DNA of 64,000 nucleotides from Thalassobaculum sp. OXR-137. GTDB taxonomy: Bacteria; Pseudomonadota; Alphaproteobacteria; Thalassobaculales; Thalassobaculaceae. The notes below the pieces were generated by a model. That model was not told where the DNA came from. It saw only the letters and a program-made list of their open reading frames with translations, and ran no database searches. The position numbers and the translations under genes are program-made. Positions within the stretch are counted from its first letter, which is position 1, and every line of letters begins with the position of its first letter. This document shows, in pieces, positions 5,844 to 32,410 of this stretch. The DNA is taken from NCBI RefSeq assembly GCF_034377285.1, contig NZ_CP139715.1, positions 5,250,501 to 5,314,500 on the forward strand. The letters are read 5' to 3'.

Positions 5844-5895
5844 GCCGTCCTCCTCGTCCAAGGTTGGTCGCTGTCGTAGCCCCGGTGTGTCGTCC

Positions 5896-6906: not shown

Positions 6907-7100
6907 GAAATCGGGAGCATCGCCCCGTCCCGGAATATGGACGGTTGATTGACACACTGCAGCATGACGTTAAGAAGGTGGGATGGTCGTGCTGTTGGTT
7001 AAAGCCGACGATCAGGATTCAAGAGCGGAGACCAAAAGCACGGCATTCATGTCCGGATTCAAACCCGATCAATCAACAGGACGAACAGGGGAATCGACCG

Positions 7101-8081
7101 ATGAAGATTAAATCGACCCTTCTCGCGGCTGCGGCCGCCGTCGTCGTCGCCGGTACGGCGTTCGGCACCAGCCCGGCCTCGGCCGCCGATTTCGGCTGCC
7201 GCACCGCAAAACTGATCGTTCCGTGGGGCGCGGGCGGCGAGACCGACATCATCTTCCGTCAGTTCGCCGAGACGGTGAACAAGAACGGCGCCGAGCCGGA
7301 GATCCAGGTCGTCAACATCGGCGGCCAGGGCGGCAACAAGGGTGCCAAGGAAGCGGAAGAGGCGAAGCCGGACGGCTGCACGCTGTTCGCCATCCACCAG
7401 AGCGCGCTGACCAGCTACTTCACGGGCCGCATCGACTTCACCTGGGACGCGTTCCAGCCGGTCGCCATGCTGACCCGCACGCCGTCGATCTTCGGTGCCA
7501 ACGCGAAGGTGCCGTACAACGACATCGAAGAGATGGTGGCCTACGCCAAGGAGAACCCGGGCAAGATCAACGCCGGCGGCACCCTCGGCTCGACCAGCCA
7601 GTTCGTCTACCTGCTGCTGGAAGACGCGGCCGGCATCAAGTTCAACCACATCTCTTATGACGGTACCCGTCAGCGGATGACCGCCCTGCTCGCCAACAAC
7701 ATCGACACCGGCGAGATCAACCTGGCGGCGGCCAAGCAGTACATCACCTCCGGCGAACTCAAGGCGCTCGGCATCACCACCGAGAAGCGCAACCCGGAGA
7801 TCCCCGACGTCAAGACCGTCAAGGAGCAGGGCTACGACCTGATCTACGGCGTCGACCGGGGCATCATGCTGCCGAAGGGCGCCTCCCAGGAGGTGATCGA
7901 CCACTATGCCGGTCTGTTCGAGGCCGCCTCGAAGGACCCGGCCATCACCAAGGCGATGACCGACATGGGCACCGACGTGTTCTTCCTGAACCCGACGGAA
8001 TCCGCCAAGTACTGGAGCGACACCCAGGCCAAGTGGGGCAAGATCGCCAAGGACGTCGGCATCTACAAGGCCAAGGACTGA
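7101..8081 (+). CDS. tctC: TctC-like substrate-binding protein of the TTT transporter
   Basis: A 326-residue periplasmic binding protein. A clear signal peptide (MKIKSTLLAAAAAVVVAGTA, cleaved near ASA-AD) is followed by KLIVPWGAGGETDI, the TTT loop that holds the ligand carboxylate. Two cysteines (FGCR near the mature N-terminus and DGCT) are also present in the upstream paralog and may form a disulfide. It is followed by tctB and tctA, so it delivers ligand to that channel. A TTGACA at 6949-6954 with a poor -10 lies in the 194-bp gap upstream. The ligand is unknown; dicarboxylic amino acids fit the neighbours. Confidence 0.9.
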   Translation: MKIKSTLLAAAAAVVVAGTAFGTSPASAADFGCRTAKLIVPWGAGGETDIIFRQFAETVNKNGAEPEIQVVNIGGQGGNKGAKEAEEAKPDGCTLFAIHQSALTSYFTGRIDFTWDAFQPVAMLTRTPSIFGANAKVPYNDIEEMVAYAKENPGKINAGGTLGSTSQFVYLLLEDAAGIKFNHISYDGTRQRMTALLANNIDTGEINLAAAKQYITSGELKALGITTEKRNPEIPDVKTVKEQGYDLIYGVDRGIMLPKGASQEVIDHYAGLFEAASKDPAITKAMTDMGTDVFFLNPTESAKYWSDTQAKWGKIAKDVGIYKAKD

Positions 8082-8098
8082 CCTTAGAGCCGCTTGGG

Positions 8099-8130
8099 AC
8101 GGGCGTCGGCAGACATGCCGGCGCCCGTTT
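8099..8130 (+). terminator. Stem-loop between tctC and tctB
   Basis: A 12-bp stem (ACGGGCGTCGGC with GCCGGCGCCCGT, one G-T pair) has a 6-base loop and is followed by TTTCGTTTG. It probably works as a partial terminator that keeps binding-protein mRNA more abundant than membrane-subunit mRNA, as is common in transporter operons. Confidence 0.65.
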
Positions 8131-8182
8131 CGTTTGATACAGTCGAACTCCGAACGAGATTTGAAGACGGGGAGATCCGACA

Positions 8183-8668
8183 ATGTCGGTGAGCCGCGAC
8201 ACGATCGTCGCCATTCTGCTTCTGGCGTTTTGCGGCCTGCTCTGGCAGGCGTCCTACGACATTGAGGTCACCACGTACGGCACGATGCAGAGCAGCGTCT
8301 GGCCACGGATCATCATCGTTGCGCTCGGCCTGTTCTCGGCCCTGCTGCTCCTCCAGTCTATCTTCCGCCCGGACCCCAGCGTTGCCGCCGAAACGGAAGC
8401 CCCGAGCGCGCCGGCGCATGTGCGCTACCGCAACGCGGGCATCATCTACGTGCTGTTTCTGCTGTTCCTGCTGACGCTGCCGACCCTGGGCATGCTGCTG
8501 GGCGGCGCCCTCTTCGTCTTCCTGTCGCTCACCGCGCTGGGGCGCCCGTCAGCCAAGCTGGTCGCGATCCATGCCACAGTCGCGATCGTGTCGGTCGGCT
8601 CCATGTGGGCAATTTTCACTTTCGGCCTGCGGGTGATCCTGCCCCAGGGCGACATCCTGCCGATCTGA
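8183..8668 (+). CDS. tctB: TctB family small membrane subunit of the TTT transporter
   Basis: A 161-residue membrane protein with about four hydrophobic segments (residues 8-24, 41-59, 87-125, 132-150), the size and pattern of TctB. It starts at ATG 8183 after a GGGGAG site and ends 18 bp before tctA. TctB is the small, poorly conserved integral subunit that works with TctA in ion-driven uptake of carboxylates. Sequence identity is low across this family, so the assignment rests mainly on topology and gene order. Confidence 0.85.
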   Translation: MSVSRDTIVAILLLAFCGLLWQASYDIEVTTYGTMQSSVWPRIIIVALGLFSALLLLQSIFRPDPSVAAETEAPSAPAHVRYRNAGIIYVLFLLFLLTLPTLGMLLGGALFVFLSLTALGRPSAKLVAIHATVAIVSVGSMWAIFTFGLRVILPQGDILPI

Positions 8669-8686
8669 GCGGGGAGAACAGAGACC

Positions 8687-10366
8687 ATGATCTTCGAGCA
8701 CGTTGTCTTCGCCTTCGGCGAGGTCTTCCACTGGAAGAACCTGGGCCTGATGTTCCTCGGCACGACGGCCGGGCTGATCGCCGGCTCGATCCCGGGCTTC
8801 ACCATCGCCATGGCCGTCGTCCTGACGCTGCCCTTCACCTTCGGCATGACGTCGGTGGAAGGGCTGTCCACCATGATCGGCGTGTTCGTGGGCGGGCTGT
8901 CCGGCGGCCTGATGTCGGGCATGCTGACCGGCATCCCCGGCACCCCCTCCTCGATCGCCACGACCTTCGACGGCTTCCCGATGGCCCGCAACGGCCGCCC
9001 CGGGCTGGCGCTGGGCCTGGGCGTGTGGTCGAGCTTCTTCGGCGGCATCTTCAGCGCCGTCCTGCTGGTGACCCTGGCCCCGAGCCTGGCCAAGATCGGA
9101 CTGGAATTCGGACCCTGGGACTATTTCGCCCTGGTTCTGTTCGCCCTGACCATCACCGCCAGCCTGTCGGGCGAGACCCTGATCAAGGGGATCATCGCCG
9201 GCCTGCTCGGCCTGTTCGTCGCCTCCATCGGCGAGGACGACGTCAACGGCGTGGCCCGCTTCACCTTCGACATCGAGACCCTGGAGAGCGGGTTCGACTT
9301 CCTGCCGGTCCTGATCGGCCTGTTCGCCTTCAGCCAGCTCCTCTCCGACGTCCAGGACCGGGACAAGGCGCGCGAGCCGCTGATGACCGGCGTCGAGGCC
9401 AAGGGGATCCGGGTCGAGCATCTGGCCGCGATCAAGATGATCGCGGTCCGGTGGGTCAATGTCGTGCGGTCCTCGGCGATCGGCGTGTTCACCGGCGTTC
9501 TGCCGGCGGCCGGCGGCTCAATCTCGAACATCCTGGCCTACGATCAGGCGAAGAAGGCGTCGAAGAAGCCCGAGGAGTACGGCACCGGAATCCCGGACGG
9601 CATCATCGCGCCGGAATCCGCCAACAACGCGACGGCCGGCGGCGCGCTGATCACGATGATGGCGCTCGGCATTCCGGGCGACGTCATCACCGCCGTCATG
9701 CTGGGCGCGCTGCTGATCCACAACGTGCAGCCGAGCCCGACCTTCATCAGCCAGAACCCCGACCTCGCCTACGCGATCTTCATCGCGTTCTTCCTGGCGC
9801 ATTTCATCATGATCATCATGCAGACCTTCTGTCTGCGCGCCTTTCTGCTGGTGGTCCGGATCCCGATGTACATGCTGGCGGCGGTGATCCTGGCCTACTG
9901 TGCCATCGGCGTGTTCGCCCTGAACAACGTCATGGAGGACATCTGGGCGCTCTTCGTCTTCGGCCTGATCGGGTACGGGATGAAGCTGCTCGGGTTCCCG
10001 CTGGCGCCGATGATCCTGGGCGTGGTTCTCGGCAGCGTTGCCGAGCTCAACCTCAGCCGGGCGATCTCCCTGTCGGGCACCACCGAGCAGTTCCTGCTGG
10101 ACATGGTGATGCGGCCCTGGGCGCTGTTCTTCCTGGTCGTGGCGGCGTTCTCGATCCTGTTCCCGTGGTACCAGAAGGCGCGGGAGACGGCCGTCTGGAC
10201 GCTCGGCTACATTCCCGGGCTGATGGTCTGTCTGGCGGTGCCGATGTTCATGATGGAAGGCTGGCCGCGCACACTTATCGCTGTGGCGTTGGTGCTGGGC
10301 GCGGTTTATCTTCTGGTCCAAAGCGCGCGTCGTGGGTGGAGCGTTAACCCCGACGGCGCCGCCTGA
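8687..10366 (+). CDS. tctA: TctA family large permease of the TTT transporter
   Basis: A 559-residue polytopic protein with the two hallmark TctA loops: GSIPGFTIAM with GIPGTPSSIATTFDGFP in the N-terminal half, and ALGIPGDVITAVMLGAL in the C-terminal half. It also has GVLPAAGGSISN and a run of hydrophobic segments. TctA forms the translocation path that accepts ligand from TctC. It is somewhat longer than the usual 500 residues, with the excess at the C-terminus. A GGGGAG site precedes the start. It is co-directional with the DgcN-like gene 67 bp downstream. Confidence 0.93.
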   Translation: MIFEHVVFAFGEVFHWKNLGLMFLGTTAGLIAGSIPGFTIAMAVVLTLPFTFGMTSVEGLSTMIGVFVGGLSGGLMSGMLTGIPGTPSSIATTFDGFPMARNGRPGLALGLGVWSSFFGGIFSAVLLVTLAPSLAKIGLEFGPWDYFALVLFALTITASLSGETLIKGIIAGLLGLFVASIGEDDVNGVARFTFDIETLESGFDFLPVLIGLFAFSQLLSDVQDRDKAREPLMTGVEAKGIRVEHLAAIKMIAVRWVNVVRSSAIGVFTGVLPAAGGSISNILAYDQAKKASKKPEEYGTGIPDGIIAPESANNATAGGALITMMALGIPGDVITAVMLGALLIHNVQPSPTFISQNPDLAYAIFIAFFLAHFIMIIMQTFCLRAFLLVVRIPMYMLAAVILAYCAIGVFALNNVMEDIWALFVFGLIGYGMKLLGFPLAPMILGVVLGSVAELNLSRAISLSGTTEQFLLDMVMRPWALFFLVVAAFSILFPWYQKARETAVWTLGYIPGLMVCLAVPMFMMEGWPRTLIAVALVLGAVYLLVQSARRGWSVNPDGAA

Positions 10367-10433
10367 TCCTCGGCACGGTCGGCCGGTATTGATCCCGGCC
10401 CCTGCCACCACCTGCAATCCCCTGGGGAGCGTC

Positions 10434-11450
10434 ATGTCGCGTTTCGAGATTCAGAACCCGTATCTGCTGTTCCTGGGCGACGCCCCCGACCAGCTCGCCG
10501 CCAAGACCGCGAACGGCGTGAAGGTGTGGCGTCCGGACTGGTGCGTCGGCCAGTTCCGCTTCCCCGCCTGCAAGGCCGATCTCGGCCTGCCCGACATGAC
10601 CATCGAGGAAGCGGCCGCCGCCGGCGTGAAGACCGTGATCCTGGGCGTCGCCAACCGCGGCGGCTTCATCCCGGAGAGCTGGATCATCGAGCTCGTCAAG
10701 GCGCTGAACCTGGGCATGGACATCGCCTCGGGCCTGCACACCCGGATCACCACGATCCCGGCCCTGAAGGAAGCCGCCGAGAAGAACGGCCGCAAGCTGT
10801 TCGACGTGCGCCACCCGACCCGCGACTATCCGGTCGCCAGCGGCGTGCCGCGCAAGGGCAAGCGCCTGCTGACCGTCGGCACCGACGTCTCCGTCGGCAA
10901 GATGTTCACCACGCTCGCCATCGAGAAGGAAATGCGCGCCCGCGGCATGAACGCCGACTTCCGCGCCACCGGCCAGACCGGCATCTTCATCGCCGGCTCG
11001 GGCCTGTCTGTCGACGCGGTGATTGCCGACTTCATCTCCGGCTCCATCGAGTGGCTGGCGCCTGAGAACAGCGAGGACCACTGGGACCTGATCGAGGGTC
11101 AGGGCTCGCTGTACAACGTGTCCTATTCCGGCGTGACCCTGGGCCTGATCCACGGCGCCCAGTCCGACGCCCTTGTGATGTGCCACGAGATCGGCCGCCC
11201 GCACATGCGCGGCCTGCCGGACTACGAGGTCCCGGCCATCCCGACGGCGATGGACACCATCCTGCACATGGCCAAGATGGTGAACTCGGACGTCAAGTTC
11301 GTCGGCGTGTCCCTGAACACCTCCAACGTGTCGGCCGCCGAGGCCGAGGCCTTCAAGAAGAAGACCGCCGAGGAGACCGGCCTGCCCGTCGTCGATCCGA
11401 TCAAGGACGGCGTGGCGCCGATCGTCGACAACATCGTCGCCAGCTACTGA
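10434..11450 (+). CDS. dgcN: DgcN-like N-acetyltransferase (DUF1611 family)
   Basis: A 338-residue DUF1611 protein with an N-terminal Rossmann-like domain and a C-terminal P-loop domain; the nucleotide-binding motif GTDVSVGKMFTT is at residues 149-160. Characteristic blocks are YLLFLGDAP at the start and DLIEGQGSLYNVSYSGV. In marine proteobacteria DgcN acetylates D-glutamate so that the racemase DgcA can convert it to N-acetyl-L-glutamate. No DgcA-like gene is in this window. The start at 10434 follows GGGGAGC. Its place directly after tctA suggests it acts on the imported substrate. Family assignment is firm; the D-glutamate specificity is inferred. Confidence 0.8.
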   Translation: MSRFEIQNPYLLFLGDAPDQLAAKTANGVKVWRPDWCVGQFRFPACKADLGLPDMTIEEAAAAGVKTVILGVANRGGFIPESWIIELVKALNLGMDIASGLHTRITTIPALKEAAEKNGRKLFDVRHPTRDYPVASGVPRKGKRLLTVGTDVSVGKMFTTLAIEKEMRARGMNADFRATGQTGIFIAGSGLSVDAVIADFISGSIEWLAPENSEDHWDLIEGQGSLYNVSYSGVTLGLIHGAQSDALVMCHEIGRPHMRGLPDYEVPAIPTAMDTILHMAKMVNSDVKFVGVSLNTSNVSAAEAEAFKKKTAEETGLPVVDPIKDGVAPIVDNIVASY

Positions 11451-11453
11451 GCG

Positions 11454-11798
11454 GTGACAGAGATCGCCGACCTGCTGCGCCCGGTCCTTGAGGATCGGGC
11501 GCGGGCGGGGGCGACGATCATCTACGCCCATCTCGCCCATGCCGCCGGGGTCCCCTCCCCGCACTCGGTCCACAAGACCGGAGAGGCGCTGGAGGTGCTG
11601 ATGGAGCAGGATGCCGCGCACGGCCGCCCTCTGCTGGCGGCCGTCGCCATTTCCAAGGCCCGCGACGGGCTGCCGGCGCCGGGGTTCTTTCAGAAAGCGG
11701 TCGAGCTCGGCCTGTATTTCGGCCCGGACCGGGGCGCGCAGGCGGCGACCTACCACGCCCTGGAGCTGGAGAAGGTCTGGGCGGCGTTCAGGGATTAA
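11454..11798 (+). CDS. Small conserved protein coupled to the DgcN-like gene
   Basis: A 114-residue protein starting at GTG three bases after the DgcN-like stop codon, so translation is probably coupled. It is soluble and mostly helical, with blocks such as HLAHAAGVPSPHSVHKTGEAL and AAVAISKARDGLPAPGFF. The SKxRxxLPxxGFF-type segment reads like a conserved nucleic-acid- or nucleotide-related motif, but I cannot name a family. Codon use matches the neighbours. A partner or regulator of the acetyltransferase is possible, on position alone. Confidence 0.7.
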   Translation: MTEIADLLRPVLEDRARAGATIIYAHLAHAAGVPSPHSVHKTGEALEVLMEQDAAHGRPLLAAVAISKARDGLPAPGFFQKAVELGLYFGPDRGAQAATYHALELEKVWAAFRD

Positions 11799-12899: not shown

Positions 12900-15273
<2,374 letters not shown>

Positions 15274-15495: not shown

Positions 15496-17808
15496 CTACC
15501 CCTCCACCTTCGGCTTTCGCATCACCGTCACGTCCGGGACCACGCCATCGACCTTGGCGACCTGCACCAGCGTCGAGTGCGCGGTCGGGCCCTGGCCCAG
15601 CCGCGAGGTGCCCCGGTCTCGAGTGAGCACGTTCGGGTTGCCGTGGACTTCCAGCCCGCCCGGGGTCTCCGGGTCGTACCAGGCGCCGGTGGAGAGCTGG
15701 ATCACGCCCGGCATCACCTGATCGCTGACGATCGCGCCGGCGAGACACGCGCCCCGGTCGTTCCAGACCCGCACGACGTCGCCGGAGGAAATCCCCCGGG
15801 CCGCCGCATCGTCCGGATGCAGGGTCATCGGCTCGCGCCCGGCCACCTTGGAGCCCTGGCTGACCTGGCCGCAATCGAGCTGGCTGTGCAGACGGGTTCG
15901 CGGCTGGTTCGACATCAGGTGCAGCGGGAAATCCTTCGCCCTCTCCGCCCCCAGCCACTCGTCCGGCTCGCGCCAGACCGGATGGCCCGGGCAGTCGTCG
16001 TAGCCGAAGCCGTCGACGGTCGACGAGAAGATCTCGATCTTGCCCGACGGGGTCTGCAGCCGGTGGGTGTCCGGATCGGCGCGGAAGTCCTCCAGCATCA
16101 CCATCGGCTTCTCGGGATCGGGGAGCTCCACATGCTCCTGCTCCCAGAAGGTCTCGAAGTCCGGCAGTTCGAACCCGGCCTCGGCGGCGCGCTGGCGGGA
16201 CTGGTCCCAGAGATGGCGGATCCAGTCCATCTCGTCGCGGCCCTCGGTGTAGCGCTCGGAAAAGCCCAGACGGTCGGCGAGACCGGTGAAGATCTCGTAA
16301 TCCGGCCGGCTCTCGCCCACCCGCGGGATCGCCTGCTTCATCGCCGAGGAGAGCGGCTCCCAATGGGTGATGGAGAGGTCGTTGCGCTCCAGCGCCGTGG
16401 TCGACGGGAAGACGATGTCGGCGTGCCGCGCCATCGAGGTCCAGAAGATCTCGTTGACGATGATCGTGTCCGGCTTCTGGAAGGCGCGGACGAGCTGGTT
16501 GATGTCCTGATGGTGGTGGAACGGGTTGCCGCCGGCCCAGTAGACCAGCTTGATGTCCGCATAGGTCCGCCGCTCGCCGTTGAAATCGTACTCGGCACCG
16601 GGGTTCAGCAGCATGTCGGAGATGCGGGCGACCGGAATGAAGTCGCTGACCGTGTTGATACCCTGGGGCACCGACGGCCACGTGAACTGCTTCACCGGGT
16701 TGCCGATGCCGTTCTCCGAGCTGTAGCCGAGGCCGAACCCGCCGCCCGGCAGGCCGATCTGGCCGAGCATGGCGGCCAGCACGACGGTCATCCAGATCGG
16801 CTGCTCGCCGTACTCGGCGCGCTGCATCGACCAGGTCGAATTGATCATGGTCCGCTTCGACGCCATGCGCCGGGCGAGGCCGCGGATGGTCTCCGCGTCG
16901 ACGCCGCTGATCTTGGCGGCCCAGTCGGCGGTCTTCGGCTGGCCGTCGGTCTCGCCGCGTAGATAGGCCTCGAACGGCGCGAAGCCGGTGGTGTAGCGCT
17001 CCAGGAACGCCTTGTCGTGCAGCCCTTCGCTGAGCAGCGTGTGGGCCAGCGCCAGCATGATCGACATGTCCGAGCCGGGGCGCGGGGCGATCCACTCGCC
17101 GCCCAGATCCGGCGGCAGGTCGGAGCGGATCGGGCTCAGATAGACCAGCTCGCAGCCGGCATCGGCGCAGTCGCGCAGGCCGTGGTAGCAGGTGTGACGG
17201 CCGACCCCGCCGGAGGTGACCTGGGCGTTCTTCACCGGCATGCCGCCGAACATCACCAGCAGCTCGCAATGCTCGGCGAGCACCGGCCAGGTGGTGTGGG
17301 TGTTCAGCACGTCGCGGAACGGGCCGACCACATAGGGAACGATCGCCTCGGCCGCGGCGTAGGAATAGGTGCCCCGGTGCGAGACATAGCCGCCGAGCTG
17401 ATTGAAGAACCGGTGGATATGCGAGTTGGCGTGGTGGAACCGCCCGGCGCTCGCCCAGCCGTAGGAGCCGGCATACATCGACCCGTTGCCGTGCTCGTCC
17501 TTCACCCGCTTCAGTTCCTGGGCGGCCATGTCCAGCGCCTCGTCCCAGGGCACGGCGACGAACGGCTCGTTGCCGCGGCCGGTGCGGTCGCTGTTGTGGC
17601 GCTTCTCCAGCCAGCCCTTGCGGACATGCGGACGGGCGACGCGGGTCTCGTGGGTGACCGCGTCCACGATGCCCGGACCGATGATCGCCGGGGCCGGGTC
17701 CTTCTCGTAGTCATGCACCGCGAGCAGCCTGTCGCCCTCGACCTCGGCGTAGTAGGTGCCCCAATGGGTGGCGGTCGGAACCAGGGTGCGCTTGATCGCG
17801 GTGCTCAT
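15496..17808 (-). CDS. Cytoplasmic molybdopterin oxidoreductase, BisC/TorZ-like (DMSO reductase family)
   Basis: A 770-residue protein containing bis-MGD molybdenum enzyme domains. The block YGWASAGRFHHANSHIHRF near residues 120-140 carries the serine expected to bind molybdenum in biotin-sulfoxide, TMAO and DMSO reductases. YWAGGNPFHHHQD and the C-terminal dinucleotide domain (SNQPRTRLHSQ) are also typical. There is no Cys-rich iron-sulfur motif at the N-terminus and no Tat signal, so it acts in the cytoplasm like BisC. It starts 25 bp after the SucA-like stop codon and is probably co-transcribed with it. The substrate may be a sulfoxide or N-oxide; it is not determined by sequence alone. 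Confidence 0.85.
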   Translation of the reverse strand: MSTAIKRTLVPTATHWGTYYAEVEGDRLLAVHDYEKDPAPAIIGPGIVDAVTHETRVARPHVRKGWLEKRHNSDRTGRGNEPFVAVPWDEALDMAAQELKRVKDEHGNGSMYAGSYGWASAGRFHHANSHIHRFFNQLGGYVSHRGTYSYAAAEAIVPYVVGPFRDVLNTHTTWPVLAEHCELLVMFGGMPVKNAQVTSGGVGRHTCYHGLRDCADAGCELVYLSPIRSDLPPDLGGEWIAPRPGSDMSIMLALAHTLLSEGLHDKAFLERYTTGFAPFEAYLRGETDGQPKTADWAAKISGVDAETIRGLARRMASKRTMINSTWSMQRAEYGEQPIWMTVVLAAMLGQIGLPGGGFGLGYSSENGIGNPVKQFTWPSVPQGINTVSDFIPVARISDMLLNPGAEYDFNGERRTYADIKLVYWAGGNPFHHHQDINQLVRAFQKPDTIIVNEIFWTSMARHADIVFPSTTALERNDLSITHWEPLSSAMKQAIPRVGESRPDYEIFTGLADRLGFSERYTEGRDEMDWIRHLWDQSRQRAAEAGFELPDFETFWEQEHVELPDPEKPMVMLEDFRADPDTHRLQTPSGKIEIFSSTVDGFGYDDCPGHPVWREPDEWLGAERAKDFPLHLMSNQPRTRLHSQLDCGQVSQGSKVAGREPMTLHPDDAAARGISSGDVVRVWNDRGACLAGAIVSDQVMPGVIQLSTGAWYDPETPGGLEVHGNPNVLTRDRGTSRLGQGPTAHSTLVQVAKVDGVVPDVTVMRKPKVEG

Positions 17809-17833
17809 GTCTTTCGTCCTCTCCGTCGGCCGA

Positions 17834-20542
17834 TCAGGCCAGCGCGGCCTCGATGACCGCCGCCTGCTCCGCCTTGTGCCACACGCCCCAGCCCACGGCC
17901 GGGGACGGTGCGGCATCGCGTCCAACATAGGTGGCACGAGCCCCGGACTCGCGCAAGCCACCGAGAATGCGGGCGAGATGCGGATCCAGATGGCGCCAGG
18001 CCCCCATATTCTCCGGCTCTTCCTGGGCCCAGACCACCTCGGCCTTGGGATGCTTCTTCAGGATCGCGGCGATCGCCGTCTCCGGCACCGGATACAGCTC
18101 CTCGATCCGGACCAGGGCCACGTCCTCGATCCGCCGCTCCCGCCGGGCGGCGGCGAGGTCGAAATAGGTCTTGCCGGAGGTCAGCACGACCTTGCGGGCA
18201 TCGGCGTCGACCTGGGCGTCGTCGATCACCGCCCGGAACGACGTGCCGGCCCCCATCTCGCTGAGCCTGGACTGGGCCTCGGCGTGGCGCAGACCGGACT
18301 TGGAGGTCAGCAGCACCAGCGGCCGGCGCCACGGAGCCAGGAGCTGGCGGCGCAGGGCGTGGAACAGGTTGGCCGGCGAGCCGCAGGCCACGACCGAGAT
18401 GTTGTTGCGTGCCGCCATCTGCAGAAAGCGCTCCGGCCGGGCGGAGGAATGCTCCGGCCCGCCGCCCTCAAGCCCATGCGGCAGCATCAGGACGAGGCCC
18501 GACTGGCGCAGCCATTTGTCGTCCCCCGCGACCAGGAACTGATCGATCACCGCCTGGGCGCCGTTGGCGAAGTCGCCGAACTGCGCCTCCCAGCAGACCA
18601 GCATGTCCGGGTCGGTGATGGACATGCCGTATTCGAAGGCCATGCAGGCCTCCTCGGTCAGTGGGCTGTCGGCGAAGGTCAGGTGGTGCGGCGTTGCCGC
18701 AAGCGCGGCGAGCGGGGTGTGCTCGGCACCGGTCTTCTGGTCGAACACCACCGCATGGCGCTGGGAGAAGGTGCCGCGCCGGCTGTCCTGGCCGGTCAGG
18801 CGCACCGCCTTGCCATCCTCCAGCAGCGAGGCGAAGGCCAGCGCCTCCGCTGTGCCGAAATTGATCCCGTCTTCGAGGGTGTCGAGCCGCTCGCCCCATT
18901 GCCGGGCGATCTTGGCGTTCAGCGCGAAACCTTCCGGCACGGCGACACTGGCCTCCGCCAATCGGCGCAGACGGGCGGCCCCGACACCGGTGACCGGCAC
19001 CTCGCCCGCGCCCACCGTCGACAGGGACGACCAGCGGCCCTGCAGCCGGTCGGCCGCGTTCGGCTTGTAGCTCTTGGCCCGGTCGAAGGCGTCGTCCAGG
19101 GTCGACCAGTGGGCCTCGGCCATGGCTGTCGCCTCGGCCTCCGGCACCACCCCGGCGGCGGCGCAGGCCTCGGCGTAGCGCTGGGGGATGCCGGGCGTCT
19201 CGGCGATGCGGGTGTAGCGCACCGGCTCGGTGAACATCGGCTCCTCGAGCTCGTTATGCCCCCGGCGGCGGAACCCGACGATGTCGACCAGGATATCCTT
19301 GCCGAACTTGCGGCGGTATTCGAGCGCGATCCGGCCGGCCCGGGCACAGGCGTCCACGTCTTCGGAGGAGACATGGATGACCGGCGCGCCGATCGCCTTG
19401 GCCACGTCGCTGGGATGACGGGACGAGCGGCCGTGTTCCGGCTTCACCGTGAAGGCGAGCTGGTTGTTCACCAGCACATGCACCGACCCGCCGACGCCAT
19501 AGGCCGGCAGCCCGGCGAGCTGCAGCATCTCGGCGATCACGCCCTGGCCGGAGAAGGCGCCGTCGGTGTGGATCAGCAGCGGCAGCACGGCGCTAGTCGG
19601 ATCCGCCTCCCCGGACCGGCGCCGCAGGTCGAGGGTCGCCCGCGTCTTGCCCAGGGTGACCGCGGAGACGATCTCCACATGGCTCGGGTTGGACGGCATG
19701 GTCAGGCGGATGCGCCGCTCGATCCCGTCCGCGTCGGTGAAGCTGCGCTCGCCGGTGAACCCCAGGTGATAGGGCACGTCGGACGACGCCTGGGTGCCGT
19801 CGGGCACCTGGGGCGTGCCCAGCAGTTCGGAGAAGGCGGCGGTCAGCGGCTTGCCCACCAGCCGGGTGATCAGGGTCAGCCGGCCCCGGTGCATCGGCGC
19901 GATGACCGCCTTGTCCATGCCCGCGCGGGCGGCATCGCCGACGATTGCCTCGAGCAGAACGATCAGCGATTCCAGTCCTTCCAGGCCAAACCGCTTGTTG
20001 GTCGGCAGGCGCTTGTTCATGAAGGTTTCCATGGCGTCCGCCGCCAGCAGGGCGTCGAGACGGTCGCGCCGCTCGTCCGCCGCCGGCTCGCCGTAGAGGC
20101 CGCCTTCCACCGCCTCGACCAGCCAGTCCCGGGCCGCGCGGTCCTCCACATGCATCACCTCGGCGGTGAACCGCCCGCCCCAGGCGGCCTGCAGCCGCGC
20201 CGTCAGTTCCCGCGGCGTGGTGCCGCCGACATCGACGTCGAGATCGCTCTCGTCCAGGCCGTGGGCGTCCGGCGACAGGTCCGGATGGCCGGGCGCCTGG
20301 TTCAGGTCCAACGGATCGAGAGACGCCGCCAGGTGGCCGTACAGCCGCCATGCCGTCTTCAGCCGCTCGCAGGCCACCGCAATGCGCCCGTCCCCGGCCG
20401 CCGCCGGGCGCGGTCCGTCCGACCGGTCGGCATAGGGCGCGAACATCGCCCAGAGGGAGGGATCGATCGACAGCGGGTCCTTGAGGAAACGGGCGTAGAG
20501 GTCGTCGAGATAGCCGGCGCCGGCTGTGGGAAGCGTATTCAT
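17834..20542 (-). CDS. SucA-like 2-oxo acid dehydrogenase E1 paralog
   Basis: A 902-residue thiamine diphosphate enzyme of the 2-oxoglutarate dehydrogenase E1 family. It has the N-terminal E2-docking-like segment (YLDDLYARFLKDP), MHRGRL, NPSHVEIVSAVTLGK, the Mg/ThDP region (IHTDGAFSGQG...VNNQLAFT), RRRGHNELEEP and the C-terminal EEPENMGAWRH. The usual HGDAA is HTDGA here, keeping the metal-binding Asp. It is about 60-80 residues shorter than typical SucA, and no sucB or lpd follows; a molybdoenzyme does. A specialised paralog is more likely than the TCA-cycle enzyme. Substrate unknown. Confidence 0.85.
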   Translation of the reverse strand: MNTLPTAGAGYLDDLYARFLKDPLSIDPSLWAMFAPYADRSDGPRPAAAGDGRIAVACERLKTAWRLYGHLAASLDPLDLNQAPGHPDLSPDAHGLDESDLDVDVGGTTPRELTARLQAAWGGRFTAEVMHVEDRAARDWLVEAVEGGLYGEPAADERRDRLDALLAADAMETFMNKRLPTNKRFGLEGLESLIVLLEAIVGDAARAGMDKAVIAPMHRGRLTLITRLVGKPLTAAFSELLGTPQVPDGTQASSDVPYHLGFTGERSFTDADGIERRIRLTMPSNPSHVEIVSAVTLGKTRATLDLRRRSGEADPTSAVLPLLIHTDGAFSGQGVIAEMLQLAGLPAYGVGGSVHVLVNNQLAFTVKPEHGRSSRHPSDVAKAIGAPVIHVSSEDVDACARAGRIALEYRRKFGKDILVDIVGFRRRGHNELEEPMFTEPVRYTRIAETPGIPQRYAEACAAAGVVPEAEATAMAEAHWSTLDDAFDRAKSYKPNAADRLQGRWSSLSTVGAGEVPVTGVGAARLRRLAEASVAVPEGFALNAKIARQWGERLDTLEDGINFGTAEALAFASLLEDGKAVRLTGQDSRRGTFSQRHAVVFDQKTGAEHTPLAALAATPHHLTFADSPLTEEACMAFEYGMSITDPDMLVCWEAQFGDFANGAQAVIDQFLVAGDDKWLRQSGLVLMLPHGLEGGGPEHSSARPERFLQMAARNNISVVACGSPANLFHALRRQLLAPWRRPLVLLTSKSGLRHAEAQSRLSEMGAGTSFRAVIDDAQVDADARKVVLTSGKTYFDLAAARRERRIEDVALVRIEELYPVPETAIAAILKKHPKAEVVWAQEEPENMGAWRHLDPHLARILGGLRESGARATYVGRDAAPSPAVGWGVWHKAEQAAVIEAALA

Positions 20543-20583
20543 GGGAATCCGAATGGCTCGCTCGCGGGGGGCTTTTAGATTGT

Positions 20584-20595
20584 ATGCAAGTGCAT
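20584..20595. promoter_or_regulatory. Candidate operator dyad between divergent genes
   Basis: ATGCA-AG-TGCAT lies in TTGTATGCAAGTGCATGC in the 126-bp space between the SucA-like gene and the ComD-like gene. The TTGTATGCA half resembles sites used by GntR/FCD regulators. A shared regulator of both divergent units is possible; no regulator gene is next to it. Confidence 0.35.
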
Positions 20596-20668
20596 GCCGC
20601 TATCTTTACAGACCTCCATCAGGCCGCCTAGCCTTCGGATTCCCTTAACAAAACGGATCCGACAGCCC

Positions 20669-21205
20669 ATGGATGAACATTGGAGCGTGGCGGCCCACCG
20701 TCACTTGAAAGCGGCCGGCGTTCGCCAGATCGGCTACGTCCCAGACGGCGGTCTCCGCCTCCTGATCGAGCGCTGTCTGGCCGACAACGAGATCGAGACG
20801 GTGATGTGCGCCACCGAAGAGGAAGCGGTCGGCCTGTCGGCCGGCGCCTGGCTCGGCGGGCAGAAATCGGCGGTGTTCATGCAGTCCAGCGGCGTCGGCA
20901 ACACGATCAACGCGATCGCGTCGCTGATCTCCTCGGCCAACTTCCCGTTCTTCGCCATCGTGACGATGCGCGGGCAGTGGGGTGAGGGGAATCCGTGGCA
21001 GGTTCCCATGGGCCAGGCCGTGGTCCCGACGCTGGAGGCGGTCGGCGTGAAGACCTTCCTGGCCGAAAGCCCGGAAGCCGTGGACATGATGATCGAGTCC
21101 GGCCTGCGCATGGCCTATTCGACCGACACCCCGGTCGCCGTCCTGGTGGGTCAGAAGGTGATCGGCTCGAAGATCTGGACGGCCGGAAAGGCGGTGAACC
21201 AATGA
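20669..21205 (+). CDS. ThDP-dependent decarboxylase alpha subunit, ComD-like
   Basis: A 178-residue protein equal to the N-terminal pyrimidine-binding domain of ThDP decarboxylases, as in the split sulfopyruvate decarboxylase ComD or the phosphonopyruvate decarboxylase N-half. It has the conserved glutamate in CATEEEAVGLSAGAW, FMQSSGVGNTINAI and the MRGQWGEGNPWQ block. The start ATG at 20669 gives the expected domain start. Its stop overlaps the start of the next gene by 4 bp (ATGA), so the two chains are made together. A 2-oxo acid carrying an acidic group is the likely substrate type; sulfopyruvate itself is not proven. Confidence 0.82.
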   Translation: MDEHWSVAAHRHLKAAGVRQIGYVPDGGLRLLIERCLADNEIETVMCATEEEAVGLSAGAWLGGQKSAVFMQSSGVGNTINAIASLISSANFPFFAIVTMRGQWGEGNPWQVPMGQAVVPTLEAVGVKTFLAESPEAVDMMIESGLRMAYSTDTPVAVLVGQKVIGSKIWTAGKAVNQ

Positions 21206-21798
21206 GCGCGATCACTCTCCATCGGCGCGATGTGCTCGGCGCCGCCATGGCCGAGCGCGGCGACACCCTGTTCGTGTCCGGCCTCGGCTCCACCACCTGG
21301 GATCTGGCCTCCTTCGGCGACCGTCCAGAGAACTTCTATCTCTGGGGGGCGATGGGCAACGCCTCGATGATCGGGCTCGGCATCGCGCTGGCCCAACCGG
21401 AGCGCCGGGTCGTGGTCATCACCGGCGACGGCGAGATGCTGATGGGCATGACCAGCTTCTCCACCATCGGCGCCAAGCGGCCGTCCAACCTGGCGGTCTG
21501 CGTGATCGACAACGAGACCTATACCGAGACCGGCCGTCAACCGACCGCGACCGGCCGCGGCACCGACCTGTCGGCGGTGGCCGCGGCCTGCGGTTTCGCC
21601 AAGACGGCGATGATCCGCACCGAGGCCGAGGCCAAGGGTCTGGCCCAGCTCCTGTTCCGTGAGCCGGGACCGGTCTGCGCCGTTGTGAAGGTGGTGGACG
21701 AGGACCTGCCGATGTCGGTTCCGCCGCGCGACGGCGGATACCTGAAGACCCGCTTCCGCATCGGGTTACTCGGCGAGGAGAAGGCGATCCAACCGTGA
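21202..21798 (+). CDS. ThDP-dependent decarboxylase beta subunit, ComE-like
   Basis: A 198-residue ThDP-pyrophosphate domain. The cofactor motif is GDGEMLMGMTSFSTIG followed about 30 residues after GDG by DNETYTETGRQ, the Asn that completes Mg binding. The front part SGLGSTTWDLASF is typical of ComE and phosphonopyruvate decarboxylase C-halves. It pairs with the preceding alpha subunit through a 4-bp overlap. Together the two would decarboxylate a 2-oxo acid to an aldehyde, which could feed or bypass the divergent SucA-like enzyme. That link is inferred only from position. Confidence 0.85.
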   Translation: MSAITLHRRDVLGAAMAERGDTLFVSGLGSTTWDLASFGDRPENFYLWGAMGNASMIGLGIALAQPERRVVVITGDGEMLMGMTSFSTIGAKRPSNLAVCVIDNETYTETGRQPTATGRGTDLSAVAAACGFAKTAMIRTEAEAKGLAQLLFREPGPVCAVVKVVDEDLPMSVPPRDGGYLKTRFRIGLLGEEKAIQP

Positions 21799-26102: not shown

Positions 26103-27479
26103 CTACTTCGCGCGCTTGAGTTCCAGGCGGTCGGTGCGGCGGTTCCACGGTAGCCAGACGGAAAACGCCATGGAGGCCAGTGCCGGGAAGGCCACGGGAT
26201 CGGCCTTGGTGATGGGAATCGGCAGTCCCTCGTTCGAGCCGCCGGCGAGCCACAGGGCGATCCGGCGGCCGAGCGCCGTCGTCATCGCCATGCCCCGGCC
26301 GTTGCAGGCGATGGCCGACCAGCCCTGGTCGCCCTCGCCGGAGCCCAGCGTCATCAGCCGCGGCATGAAGTCCCGCGCCGCCGCCAGCCGCCCCTGCCAG
26401 GCATAGGCGGATTGCATCGGCGGCAGTTGCGGCAGCATCTCGCTCAACCGGGCCAGATGATAGACCTGCGCCCGCTCGGCCGACCCGAAGGGCGAGGCCA
26501 GCAGGCCGCCGGTGACGATCCGGTTGTCCCAGGTCCAGCGATAGGCGATCAGCTCCTTGCGGGTATCGGCGGATGCCCGGTCGTTCGGCAGCACGGCCTC
26601 GCGCAGAGCGGGATCCAGCGGCTGGGTCGCCATCTGGAACAGGGTGATCGGGAACTGGGTGGCCTCGGCCTGGGGGGCCAGGCCGCCGCCGGTGGAGTTC
26701 GTGGTCAGCAGCAGCCGCTTGGCGATCACCGTGCCGCCATCGGTCGACACCCGCCAGCGGTCGCCCTGACGCTCGATCTTGCGAGCGCGGGAGCCGGTAA
26801 ACAGGGTCGCGCCGGCCGTCACCGCCGCGGCGGCCAGACCGCGGCAATAGGCCAGCGGGTTCAGATGCCCGCCGGTCGGGTCGAGGAAGGCGCCGTGATA
26901 AACGTCGCTGCCGGTCTCGTAGACCGCCTCGTCGCGGGACAGGGCCCGCACCGGCCGGCCGAGCTTCTGCCATTGGACCACCCGGTCCTCCAGCCAGGCC
27001 CGCTTCTCCGGGGTATGGATCGGCTGGATCCAACCGCTCTGCCGCGCTTCGCAGTCGATGCCGTGGCGCCGGATCAGCTCGAACACCAGCTCGCCGCCCT
27101 GACCGATCATGTCGCAGACTTGGCGGCCGTATTCCGGGCCGAGCGCGTTCGCCATCACCGTCGGGTCGAGCCCGGTGAGCAGGTTCGGCACCACGAAGCC
27201 GGTGTTGCGCCCCGACGCCCCAAAGCCGGGTTCGTCCGCTTCCAGCACGGCCACCTCGACCCCGGCCTCCGCCAGATGCAGCGCCGTGGAGAAGCCCAGA
27301 TAGCCGCCGCCGACGACCGCGACATCGGTCTCCACCTCCCCGTCCAGCGGACCACTTTGCGGAGCGGCGGGTGCGGTGGCGTGCCAGAACGACGACTGGA
27401 ACGACACCGACGGATGCGGGGCCGCGGCAAGCCGCTCGAACAGGGTGGGGCGATAGCCCTCATGCGCGATCTTCGTCAT
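26103..27479 (-). CDS. FAD-dependent oxidoreductase, PuuB/DAO-like
   Basis: A 458-residue flavoprotein of the D-amino-acid oxidase fold. The FAD motif VAVVGGGYLGFSTALHLAE begins near residue 53, followed by VLEADEPGFGASGRNTG, the signature of the gamma-glutamylputrescine oxidase and glycine/sarcosine oxidase branch. The C-terminus has ACNGRGMAMTTALGRRIA, which closes the FAD site. It would oxidise a secondary or primary amine. The start at 27479 matches the usual N-terminal extension; upstream frame was discarded. It is divergent from the next MFS gene, which may handle its substrate. Confidence 0.87.
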   Translation of the reverse strand: MTKIAHEGYRPTLFERLAAAPHPSVSFQSSFWHATAPAAPQSGPLDGEVETDVAVVGGGYLGFSTALHLAEAGVEVAVLEADEPGFGASGRNTGFVVPNLLTGLDPTVMANALGPEYGRQVCDMIGQGGELVFELIRRHGIDCEARQSGWIQPIHTPEKRAWLEDRVVQWQKLGRPVRALSRDEAVYETGSDVYHGAFLDPTGGHLNPLAYCRGLAAAAVTAGATLFTGSRARKIERQGDRWRVSTDGGTVIAKRLLLTTNSTGGGLAPQAEATQFPITLFQMATQPLDPALREAVLPNDRASADTRKELIAYRWTWDNRIVTGGLLASPFGSAERAQVYHLARLSEMLPQLPPMQSAYAWQGRLAAARDFMPRLMTLGSGEGDQGWSAIACNGRGMAMTTALGRRIALWLAGGSNEGLPIPITKADPVAFPALASMAFSVWLPWNRRTDRLELKRAK

Positions 27480-27629
27480 GGCCTCGATGCTAGATCGGGA
27501 CGGGCCGGCGCGGAATGGCCTATCGGCGCGATCTGGCCCTCCTGCGTGAGACGACCGAAGCATTCGGCATTTTCGCTTTTGCGTGAATTGCACTACCCGA
27601 GCGGTGATTGCCGCTGTTTAGTGCCCTTC

Positions 27630-28868
27630 ATGGCCCAGACCACCGCGACCCCATCCGAGAACAAGCCGAAACTGCGCGATCTTCTGGTCGTGGTGTTCTT
27701 CACCACGATGGTGATGACCCTCGCCAGCATGTCGGTGCTCTGGATCCCCGCGATCGCCCCGGCGGTGGCCGCCGATCTCGGCATCTCCCCCTCCCTGGTC
27801 GGCTACCAGTTCACCCTGGCTTATATCGGCGCGATGACATCGAGCCTGCTGGTCGGCGGCTTCGTCCAGCGCTTCGGCGCCTGGCGGACCAGTCAATGCA
27901 GCCTCGGCATGCTGGCGATCGGACACCTTATCCTGATGAGCGGGCATCTGGAGCTGATGGTGGTCGGCTCGATCGCCACCGGTTTCGGCTACGGCATGAT
28001 GAACCCGCCGGCCATGGACCTGCTGAACCGGGTGGTCACGCCGTCCAACCGCAACCTGGTCTTCTCTGTCCGCTTCACCGGCGTGCCCCTGGGCGGGGTC
28101 CTGGCCAGCCTGGTGGCGCCGTCCCTCACCCTGGCGGTCGGCTGGCAGCCGACCATGATGGTCGTGGGCGCCTTGGGTCTGGTGCTGTTCGCCGCCATGC
28201 AGCCGCTGCGCGCCCGGTTCGACGCCAACCGGCAGCGCGAAGCCTCGGTGATCCGCGATCCGTTCTCCGGGCTGAAGCTCATCCTGCGGTCCCGCGCGCT
28301 GCGGTTCTTCGCCTTCACCGGCCTGTGCTTCGCCGCCGTCCAGCTCTCGCTCATGTCCTTCGCCGTCACGTTGCTGGTGGACGAGGTGGGGTGGACCCTG
28401 GTGAGTGCCGGCGTGGCCCTGTCCTGCGTCCAGGTCGCCGGCGTGATCGGCCGCGTGAGTTGGGGCGTGATCGCCGACCGGCTGCGTTCCAGCACCGCGG
28501 TCCTGATCATCATCGGCAGCGCCATGGCCGTGGCCAGCCTCACCGCCTCGCAGATCGAGGCCGCCTGGCCGCAGATCGCCGTCTTCGCGTTCTTCTTCGT
28601 CTTCGGTCTGGTCGCCGTCGGCTGGAACGGCGTCTTCGCCAGCGAGGCCGCCCGGCTGAGCCCGCCGGGATCCATCGGCCACGCGACCGGCGGAGTGCTG
28701 TTCATCACCTTCTCCGGCGTCCTGTTCGGGCCGGTGGTGTTCTCGATGCTGTTCCAGGTCACCGGCAGCTATTCGGCGACCTTCCTCGCCTCGGCGGCGT
28801 TGGCCGCCCTCGGCGTGGCGTTCCTCGGCGTCTCCCGCCGGGCCGCGCGCAGCGACGCCGCTCAGTAG
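27630..28868 (+). CDS. MFS transporter
   Basis: A 412-residue major facilitator with 12 predicted helices and the loop GFVQRFGAWRTSQ after helix 2. DRLRSSTAVL is the equivalent loop in the second half. It resembles the NNP/cyanate or oxalate-formate antiporter-like groups (GFGYGMMNPPAMDLLNR), which take up or exchange small organic anions. The ATG at 27630 is preceded by TTAGTGCCCTTC with no good ribosome site. It is divergent from the FAD oxidoreductase. Its last 7 bases overlap the end of the convergent DUF3179 gene. Confidence 0.85.
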   Translation: MAQTTATPSENKPKLRDLLVVVFFTTMVMTLASMSVLWIPAIAPAVAADLGISPSLVGYQFTLAYIGAMTSSLLVGGFVQRFGAWRTSQCSLGMLAIGHLILMSGHLELMVVGSIATGFGYGMMNPPAMDLLNRVVTPSNRNLVFSVRFTGVPLGGVLASLVAPSLTLAVGWQPTMMVVGALGLVLFAAMQPLRARFDANRQREASVIRDPFSGLKLILRSRALRFFAFTGLCFAAVQLSLMSFAVTLLVDEVGWTLVSAGVALSCVQVAGVIGRVSWGVIADRLRSSTAVLIIIGSAMAVASLTASQIEAAWPQIAVFAFFFVFGLVAVGWNGVFASEAARLSPPGSIGHATGGVLFITFSGVLFGPVVFSMLFQVTGSYSATFLASAALAALGVAFLGVSRRAARSDAAQ

Positions 28869-29824
28869 ACGATCTTGCCGTCCGGCCGGAAGGCGTGGAA
28901 CACGAAGGCGAAGGTGATCTCGTGGGTCACGTCGGTGCCGTCGCGGGTGACGACCACATTGCCGATATCGCGTCCCTCGGCGATCTTTCGGGTGTCCAGT
29001 GCCGAGTTCTGACCGGGCTCCCACGTGATCATCAGATCGCCGTCGCTCCACCAGCCCTTCTCGCGTAGCATGGCGAGGCTCCAGGCCATGTCGCCGATCA
29101 CTACGACCCGCGCCATCGGGTCCAGCCCCTTCGGCATGTCGCCGTCATAGAGGAACGGCACCGGCATGGTGTCGTAGCCCTTGTAGGGGTTGATGCCGTA
29201 GGGCCGGGCCTCGGGGTCGTTGGGGATCAGCACCTTGCCGCCGGCATGGCGTTCGGCGAAGCGCTCCGCACTCTCCAGGCGCGCCGGGACCGAGCGGAGC
29301 TGTTCACCGGTCATCGCGCCGACGATCCCCTCGCCGGTATACTGCTGCCACCAGCTTTCGGTCTGCCGGTCGTACATGATCAGCCCGGAATTGCGGATGT
29401 TGCCGGTGGTGCCGAAATCGAGCGGTCGCCCCTCCACCCGCCGGTCGAACACGATGGCGGTATTGCACAGCGGGCAGTAGGTGACCGCCACCGGAACGCC
29501 GCCGACCGTGTCGTTGACGATCTCGTGCCAGATCAGGATGCGCAGCGGATACGCGCGGGCGTCGCCGGCGATGGCGACGGAGACGACGGGCTCGGTCGGC
29601 GCCACCCCGGCGAACCCGGTGGTGACGTCGGCGAAGACCGGCCGGTCGATCGGGGGGATGTCGTCCCGGCCCGGTCCACCGGACGCGATCTCGTTCAGCG
29701 GCACCGAATGCTGTGAGAAGTCGGTCCTCGGCCACGCCTTCTCCCAGGCGTTTCCGGCCAGGGCGGCTGTCGAGAACATCAACAGGGCGGCAAGCAGCGA
29801 CAGTAAGATGCGCGGGTCAGACAT
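28862..29824 (-). CDS. DUF3179 domain protein, exported
   Basis: A 320-residue protein with a signal peptide (MSDPRILLSLLAALLMFSTA) and a DUF3179 domain: IWHEIVNDTVGG, VAVTYCPLCNTAIVFDRR and DFGTTGNIRNSGLIMYDRQT. The CPLC motif is a feature of the family and could bind metal or form a disulfide. Function is unknown. A start six codons upstream (29842) is also open; 29824 was chosen because the signal peptide then begins normally. Neither has a strong ribosome site. The 3' end overlaps the convergent MFS gene by 7 bp. Confidence 0.85.
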   Translation of the reverse strand: MSDPRILLSLLAALLMFSTAALAGNAWEKAWPRTDFSQHSVPLNEIASGGPGRDDIPPIDRPVFADVTTGFAGVAPTEPVVSVAIAGDARAYPLRILIWHEIVNDTVGGVPVAVTYCPLCNTAIVFDRRVEGRPLDFGTTGNIRNSGLIMYDRQTESWWQQYTGEGIVGAMTGEQLRSVPARLESAERFAERHAGGKVLIPNDPEARPYGINPYKGYDTMPVPFLYDGDMPKGLDPMARVVVIGDMAWSLAMLREKGWWSDGDLMITWEPGQNSALDTRKIAEGRDIGNVVVTRDGTDVTHEITFAFVFHAFRPDGKIVY

Positions 29825-29905
29825 GGCCGAACAATGCGTCACCCGATGCCTTCAACGGAAATCACGAACCGGGGAAATCGCGTGTGCGGCCATGGTGGCC
29901 CCGGA

Positions 29906-30220
29906 TCAGCCGGTGCCGAGCTTGGACGACCGGGAGCGGATGTTGGACAGGCGGGGATCGGGCGGCAGGTCGGTGACCGGATCGTCAATATCCCCGAACT
30001 GGCGGAAGAGTTCGGCCGATTCGATGGCGGTGGAGTGCACCTTGCGGGTCTCGCGCGGGTTCAGCATACCGAACGCCTTGCCCGCATGCCGGCGGTCGAT
30101 GTCGGCCAGCGTGTTGGCGGCTTTGACGACCGCTGCATGCACGAACCCGGTACCGACGGTGCGATCGACTGCGTCGGCCAATATCTCCAAAGCTTTGCGA
30201 TCCGAATCTGGCTTCGCCAT
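29906..30220 (-). CDS. Hypothetical protein, 104 residues
   Basis: A small soluble protein with a helical first half (ALEILADAVDRTVGTGFVHAAVVKAANTLADIDRR) and a polar C-terminus rich in Asp, Pro, Arg and Ser. ATG at 30220 with GGGTGGC upstream is preferred over ATG at 30241. It has coding-like third-base GC and sits alone between the DUF3179 gene and an AT-rich spacer. I do not recognise the family and it could be specific to close relatives. Confidence 0.55.
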   Translation of the reverse strand: MAKPDSDRKALEILADAVDRTVGTGFVHAAVVKAANTLADIDRRHAGKAFGMLNPRETRKVHSTAIESAELFRQFGDIDDPVTDLPPDPRLSNIRSRSSKLGTG

Positions 30221-30474
30221 GCGCCACCCAGAGGCGTCCATTAAAGACGCTCATCATCACCAACCGTAAATCAGAGTTAATGATTCGACCGAGTCGCGCA
30301 AGTGAATTTGATTTTAATGATTCCCTATTTATCGTTAACCGGCCGCGTCTATTTGTGAACCGAAAGCGCCCATCGATCGGGCGCCCAGGGTCGCCGCGAT
30401 TGCCGGGGCGCGCGGGCTCCGCTAGCGTGATGCGCGGTCCCGGTCGAGGGGCGGCCCAGCCAGGGAGTGCGGCG

Positions 30475-30900: not shown

Positions 30901-30910
30901 AGCACATCAC

Positions 30911-30932
30911 GATCAGATGGACACATCTGATC
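30911..30932. repeat. GATCAGATG palindromic element
   Basis: GATCAGATG (30911-30919) pairs with CATCTGATC (30924-30932) across 4 bases, inside a larger imperfect dyad GAGCACATCAC...GTGAATATGCTC. Elements of this form (AGAGCA...GATCAGATG) are widespread in alphaproteobacterial intergenic DNA. Here it lies between convergent genes and may help to end both. Confidence 0.65.
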
Positions 30933-30981
30933 GCGTGAATATGCTCTCTCTTGAATAGGTTGGAGCGGCGGCGCCCGACGG

Positions 30982-32408: not shown

Positions 32409-32410
32409 CA

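Follow-up and report, generated by a model that had tools for sequence, protein, structure and literature searches.

A conserved BisC-decarboxylase module joined by a deep-branching orphan SucA-family E1 in Thalassobaculum sp. OXR-137 and its relatives

Why would an E1 subunit of the 2-oxoglutarate dehydrogenase (OGDH) family be encoded, with no E2 or E3 gene beside it, between a molybdoenzyme and a split thiamine diphosphate (ThDP)-dependent decarboxylase? This question is raised by a stretch of 64,000 nucleotides (nt) from Thalassobaculum sp. OXR-137 (NCBI RefSeq assembly GCF_034377285.1, contig NZ_CP139715.1, positions 5,250,501 to 5,314,500), the whole of which is referred to here as the window. 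On its minus strand, the gene for a BisC-type molybdoenzyme (15496-17808; 770 amino acids (aa), with the start set at MSTAIK and not at the listed GTG) lies downstream of that for the orphan SucA-family E1 (17834-20542; 902 aa, no internal stop, with an HTDGA motif). Facing them on the plus strand are the genes for the alpha (pyrimidine-binding, PF02776; 20669-21205) and beta (diphosphate-binding, PF02775; 21202-21798) subunits of the decarboxylase, which overlap by 4 nt. All genes named in a preliminary description of this DNA are present and intact; the starts of bisC, E1 and both decarboxylase genes were chosen by conservation. We found that the arrangement is conserved and consists of a BisC-decarboxylase module of one order and a later, deep-branching orphan E1. 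In agreement with the preliminary description, no account of this gene set was found in the literature searched.

The order was sampled with 36 genomes, all of one family (genomes and loci are denoted below by G and L numbers). In 26 of these, bisC neighbors the alpha gene of the decarboxylase in divergent orientation. No E1 separates them in 19 genomes (18 loci examined, and G727 judged by coordinates), and in the other seven the E1 lies between them, in the direction of bisC. Thus, the arrangement of the window recurs in six further genomes and is not peculiar to this strain. Coding matches of bisC and alpha are 170-291 nt apart in 16 of the 18 E1-less loci measured and 560 and 1186 nt apart in the others; where E1 is present, it lies 120-150 nt from alpha and, in 7/7 genomes, 28-63 nt from the BisC match. 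Of the genes tested, the first one behind the pair is a major facilitator superfamily (MFS) gene in 16/18 E1-less loci, and it was found in five of the seven E1-bearing loci; in L309 and L325 (G010 and G019, both E1-less) it follows a flavin adenine dinucleotide (FAD) oxidase gene. Elsewhere in the order, G012, G725 and G726 have no bisC and no close alpha gene, G014 has bisC without a close alpha gene, and G015 and G024 have alpha without bisC. G023 carries the two genes on different contigs, with no bisC near alpha, and alpha of G020 is near a contig end. Two 1.5-Mb genomes assigned to the same genus (G001 and G005) contain neither bisC nor alpha; each is a single contig, given as 99% complete in the genome table, and keeps a canonical SucA.

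In a BisC tree, the seven E1-bearing loci formed one group (support 92) with the E1-less G010 as its neighbor, and a group with full support enclosed both. In addition, bisC and the decarboxylase remain paired as their flanking genes vary and as BisC identity drops to ~58%. The E1-less pairing in 19 genomes and the position of E1 between the pair in seven genomes of a single group argue that BisC and the decarboxylase, usually with an MFS transporter, form the older module, which the E1 joined later. The insertion probably happened once, and a single event is the simplest account of E1 placement, although E1 may have been lost in G010 instead. The preliminary description treated E1, BisC and the decarboxylase as a set, which holds for their joint conservation in seven genomes but not for their origin, the E1 being the later member. 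Outside the order, no decarboxylase pair was detected near BisC in 19 loci (stretches of ~8 kb around BisC), and no bisC above 60 bits was detected near the decarboxylase in the fetched stretches of 18 loci. Beyond those stretches, G126 and G231 have an alpha homologue (44% and 45%) on the same contig as bisC, ~8.6 and 11 kb away, so a loose linkage of the two genes may exist outside the order. No neighbor is widely shared by the 19 outside BisC loci, in some of which few genes were detected with a simple gene caller: the gene family next in frequency is present in four, and an attempt to infer a role from these neighborhoods was dropped. In the outside locus L234, a TctA-like gene is located beside the decarboxylase pair.

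Is the E1 simply the SucA of its genome? The genome (5.65 Mb, 3 contigs) contains a housekeeping sucA-sucB-lpd operon, with mdh, sucC and sucD ahead of it, at ~989-998 kb of contig C1; its canonical sucA encodes 966 aa (L119). Here, sucA and sucB were located by search, and mdh, sucC, sucD and lpd were identified by eye from translations. Therefore, the E1 of the window is not the only SucA of the genome but a paralogue, and two SucA-family matches, the second one a canonical SucA, were present in 7/7 E1-bearing genomes. Its orphan status, as noted in the preliminary description, is a consistent feature: no SucB/E2 match adjoins E1 in any E1-bearing locus or in any of the 11 orphans compared, i.e., the seven of this kind and four further E1s without an adjoining E2 (L117, L118, L151 and L152). 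A domain scan of the 902-aa protein revealed E1 domains only and no E2 domain. The E1 exceeds the cut-offs of NCBIfam SucA models (NF006914, 938.6 vs 764; TIGR00239, 797 vs 770) and is barely above that of NF008907 (887.5 vs 878), which models E1/E2 fusions of actinobacteria. Automatic annotation, going by such scores, would label it as SucA. The nearest named record among the best 80 matches listed is the E1 of T. litoreum DSM 18839 (94% identity).

Phylogenetic analysis separated this protein from canonical E1s. After removal of duplicate short loci (among them L001 and L003-L008), the E1 set contained 142 rows: seven of this E1, the four other orphans, and 131 further E1s taken regardless of neighbors, some of which lie at contig ends with sucB out of view. 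From these, 48 rows (11 orphans) and, for a more careful tree, 27 rows (9 orphans) were hand-picked for spread. In both trees, a branch with full support (100/100) divided the orphan E1s from the E1s of Alphaproteobacteria, E. coli, Bacteroidota, Actinomycetota and others, so that the orphan E1 did not cluster with canonical E1s. Branching order among the orphans is less certain, and L117 forms a long branch. The phylogeny proposed in the preliminary description thus yielded a separate deep clade. E1 identity is 65-94% among the E1-bearing loci, across three lineages, and 41-45% to canonical E1s. A model of the 11 orphans scored above 1200 bits in 10/36 genomes of the order (the seven, plus G017, G724 and G010); the orphan E1 of G724 (L287) was included in no tree. 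Among 349 genomes of the phylum, with two candidates scored per genome, only the E1 of the window itself exceeded 1200 bits; as the class and phylum surveys scored few candidates per genome (two for both E1 and BisC), orphan E1s were possibly missed. Ratios of nonsynonymous to synonymous changes against three relatives (0.040/0.338, 0.109/0.704 and 0.099/0.518) show that the E1 is under purifying selection. On these trees, it is best regarded as an old, separate, deep-branching kind of SucA-family paralogue. The other orphan E1s sit among different neighbors: a GlcD-like FAD oxidase gene (below the GlcD cut-off) adjoins E1 in L118, a similar gene is ~7 kb from E1 in L151, with CoA-transferase- and TRAP-like genes (by eye), and a xanthine-dehydrogenase-type gene adjoins E1 in L117.

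Compared to canonical SucA, the orphan E1 has the same fold and domains, but it differs in the absence of adjoining E2/E3 genes, a changed motif and a shorter linker, in addition to its deep clade. Its top-scoring solved relatives are the actinobacterial E1-E2 fusions KGD and OdhA; in contrast to these, it has no fused E2 domain, and it stands apart from them in the trees. The change of HGDAA to HTDGA, reported in the preliminary description, was confirmed in 7/7 orthologues, and at the first altered position (G to T) all 131 other E1 rows have G. At 26 positions with conservation of 95% or more in these 131, the seven members deviate; two of the changes, G356T and K296P, are carried in the same form by orphans L117, L118, L151 and L152. 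Nevertheless, catalytic residues H260, H298, H729, D357 and N389, as well as pocket residues F227, Y297, F394 and D688 (E. coli numbering), are retained in 7/7. These four pocket residues are among those by which a review compares the enzymes for 2-oxoadipate and 2-oxoglutarate (PMC8146983). The polar pocket residues of DHTKD1 given there (Tyr190, Tyr370 and Ser263) are replaced by Phe, Phe and Tyr in 7/7. Since catalytic and substrate residues are retained, the E1 is predicted to take a substrate resembling 2-oxoglutarate, at an active site whose edge is altered. A putative N-terminal E2/E3-docking peptide, YLDDLYARFLKDPLSIDPSLWAMF, is also present in 7/7. It matches human E1 peptides YVEEM and LENPKSVHKSWDIF, which, according to two reports, are protected on E2 or E3 binding (PMC8146983, PMC10003691). 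PF16078 was found in 8/11 orphan E1s (E<=0.01). Use of the housekeeping E2/E3 by this E1 would be the favored interpretation of these features.

The shared divergent region, to which the preliminary description had assigned a promoter, indeed contains a conserved promoter-like element that faces the decarboxylase genes. An operator-like element, ATTGTATGCA with an imperfect second half (20579-20598, plus strand), is followed by CTTTACA and, 17 nt on, CTAGC (20604-20634, plus strand). ATTGTRTRCA, CTTTACA and CTAGC are invariant in 9/9 aligned loci, i.e., the seven E1-bearing loci and the two nearest E1-less ones (G010 and G019); in the latter two, ATTGTRTRCA and the second half form a full palindrome. 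The element looks like an operator immediately upstream of the decarboxylase promoter, with a palindrome that may resemble sites of GntR-type regulators. The whole element was not seen in the 16 other E1-less loci inspected (L324 over part of its sequence), though parts recur. The operator-like sequence has a single occurrence in the genome at up to two mismatches, and the idea of an operator regulon was therefore rejected. A consensus promoter scan of the region flagged a single terminator-like stem, located at the operator (20582-20597). The intergenic region of the window is also flanked by a perfect 11-nt inverted repeat; no copy of it was found in relatives, and the repeat was set aside.

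The BisC protein scored above the cut-off of bisC_fam (TIGR00509; 1035 vs 1017.55 bits), and its best solved relatives are dimethyl sulfoxide (DMSO) reductases. It retains two stretches of these reductases, SYGW and YS, which are presumably of functional importance there. No twin-arginine translocation (Tat) signal was seen, by eye only, at the N-terminus (MSTAIKRTLVPTATHWG). In these respects it resembles the biotin/methionine sulfoxide reductase BisC, from which it differs by its 43% identity to the E. coli protein and by its fixed partner genes in the order. A regulon study predicts that the taurine regulons of some Rhodobacterales include a different bisC, accompanied by dmsC and hybA, and a COG665 oxidoreductase (PMC5320631). 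No DmsC or HybA partners were seen at the bisC of the module. Two genes lie immediately downstream of bisC (13790-15273), one for an IS110-like transposase (by eye) and a small GIY-YIG-like one; the latter is also present in L037, in the opposite direction.

What does the split decarboxylase act on? Its alpha subunit scored 114.8 bits against TIGR03845 (cut-off 147.95), and its beta subunit 136.9 bits against TIGR03846 (cut-off 221.5). Sulfopyruvate decarboxylase was the top named match of alpha and the second one of beta, and the subunits resemble RhiE (9iz3_A) and RhiF (9iz3_B), respectively. RhiEF and ComDE serve as the comparison for this pair (PMC12141560). The sulfopyruvate decarboxylase ComDE and the phosphonopyruvate decarboxylase RhiEF have the same split alpha/beta ThDP build and align over most of each subunit. 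However, the pair of the module is under the curated cut-offs of both sulfopyruvate and phosphonopyruvate models and is accompanied by bisC and an MFS gene, and its genome has no sulfoacetaldehyde acetyltransferase (Xsc) above the cut-off (best match 265.9 vs 676.4 bits). A gene for a protoglobin-domain protein (PF11563; 22064-22795) follows the decarboxylase genes; it was matched in L036 (69%) and, at the thresholds used, not in L037 or L038.

We favor, with a probability of roughly 0.4, the reading that this locus is an inducible module of 2-oxo-acid and S-oxide metabolism, to which an alternative 2-oxoglutarate-type E1 was added that would hand its acyl unit to the housekeeping E2/E3. We do so because bisC and alpha are paired in 26/36 genomes, with E1 between them in seven that form one BisC-tree group adjacent to G010; because E1 residues, the docking peptide and a second, canonical SucA are kept in 7/7; and because of the operator/promoter-like element, the tight E1-BisC spacing and purifying selection on E1. 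Comparison of the loci shows that a deep-branching SucA-family E1 entered between the two arms of the module, upstream of bisC and in the same direction, in one lineage. In the proposed mechanism, the ThDP pair would decarboxylate a small 2-oxo acid to an aldehyde, possibly used by a conserved aldo/keto reductase encoded nearby, and BisC would reduce an S- or N-oxide. The E1, produced together with the module as an alternative E1, would bind ThDP/Mg and a 2-oxoglutarate-like substrate, and most likely decarboxylate it and pass the acyl unit to E2/E3 from housekeeping sucB-lpd. Several observations weigh against this reading. The substitutions M258P, K296P, G356T and A358G beside the E1 active site may mean another substrate; the PF16078 score of the E1 of the window (26.3) falls slightly short of the cut-off (27); and the docking peptide is followed by a linker that is, by eye, far shorter than that of the canonical E1. 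In one report, simulations suggest that the N-terminal regions of E1 are shielded by E2, with no direct contact (PMC10003691). A sigma-70 consensus scan calls no promoter at the divergent region. Shared descent within one family accounts for part of the synteny; given this relatedness, what carries the argument is the persistence of the pair amid changing flanks. Finally, BisC and the decarboxylase pair are found apart in many other Alphaproteobacteria, and therefore do not depend on each other everywhere. Relatives with (7) and without (19) E1 that have the same module make a direct test of the E1 contribution possible, and the module offers a handle on an uncharacterized BisC-decarboxylase pathway in marine bacteria, as a small unit testable in the laboratory.

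The E1 could also act alone, with no need for E2/E3, as a 2-oxoglutarate decarboxylase or carboligase that might join its ThDP-bound four-carbon unit to the aldehyde of its neighbor. The absence of E2 genes beside all 11 orphans, the short linker, the adjacent aldehyde-forming ThDP enzyme, and the nearest solved relatives by score (mycobacterial/corynebacterial 2-oxoglutarate decarboxylase or multifunctional 2-oxoglutarate metabolism enzyme) are consistent with this. However, score gaps among the solved relatives are small, and the docking peptide in 7/7 and PF16078 in most orphans point the other way, leaving the proposal doubtful. Its most specific form, in which the E1 would be a stand-alone 2-oxoglutarate:aldehyde carboligase supplied with aldehyde by the split decarboxylase and BisC would handle an S- or N-oxide form of the substrate, is unlikely; if true, it would represent an unknown C-C bond-forming route involving three ThDP polypeptides and a molybdoenzyme. 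We also consider it improbable that the E1 is a second SucA that stands idle or in reserve and lies between bisC and the decarboxylase by chance. Its SucA-level scores and canonical pocket residues would suit such a copy, but the same position is held across three lineages, the E1 is under purifying selection and closely spaced to bisC, and it is deeply diverged from the SucA of its own genome.

The preliminary description suggested a sulfonated keto acid as substrate, and a sulfopyruvate or other sulfonate pathway of the ComDE type gains some credit from the best-named matches of the subunits and from the different bisC in the predicted taurine regulons cited above. Both subunits miss the sulfopyruvate cut-offs, however, and Xsc, the only fate of sulfoacetaldehyde examined, is above its cut-off in 1/36 genomes of the order (G728) and not in this one; on these grounds, the pathway is not supported and appears very unlikely. 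Nor do we see support for a 2-oxoadipate-type (DHTKD1-like) E1 in lysine/pipecolate breakdown, in which the FAD oxidase encoded nearby would be a pipecolate oxidase. The best model for this FAD protein is AmaA and an isocitrate/homoisocitrate-type dehydrogenase is encoded nearby, but the AmaA score is 276.9 bits against a cut-off of 600, and the residues that separate the human 2-oxoadipate from the 2-oxoglutarate enzyme (PMC8146983) are of the 2-oxoglutarate type. DHTKD1 was the lowest of the 15 solved sequences listed, yet barely under human OGDH (544.4-544.9 vs 546.3). The pocket residues make this explanation a very unlikely one.

The preliminary description ended the locus at 21798 and thereby omitted conserved neighbors at 26103-34224. 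These include genes for an FAD-dependent amino-acid-oxidase-like protein (DAO, PF01266; 26103-27485, minus strand), which occurs near the module in 7/7 E1-bearing loci and in the E1-less L309 and L325; the MFS transporter (PF07690; 27636-28868, plus strand); and a DUF3179 protein (PF11376; 28862-29842, minus strand), present in 7/7 E1-bearing loci, whose tie to the module is uncertain. Further on, all on the minus strand, are genes for an aldo/keto reductase (PF00248; 31578-32411), kept nearby where the locus extends far enough, an enoyl-CoA hydratase/isomerase-family protein (PF00378; 32438-33124), also found in L039, L056 and L116, and an isocitrate/isopropylmalate dehydrogenase-family protein (PF00180; 33157-34224), which is under every NCBIfam cut-off listed and is a conserved neighbor in part of the loci. 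The reductase, dehydrogenase, hydratase and FAD oxidase would suit 2-oxo-acid and aldehyde metabolism, without naming a substrate.

On the other side of the module, TctC/TctB/TctA-like transporter genes (by eye) and, after them, a gene scoring above the cut-off for the N-acetyltransferase DgcN (526.7 vs 480) together span 5803-11798. Genes for TctA and DgcN also occur close to the module of L036 and L037, and were not seen in the other loci. A gene for an alkaline-phosphatase-superfamily ester hydrolase or sulfatase (11987-13579 of L184; best model PehA, under its cut-off) is located near the E1-less module in L184, L319, L320, L322, L323 and L324.

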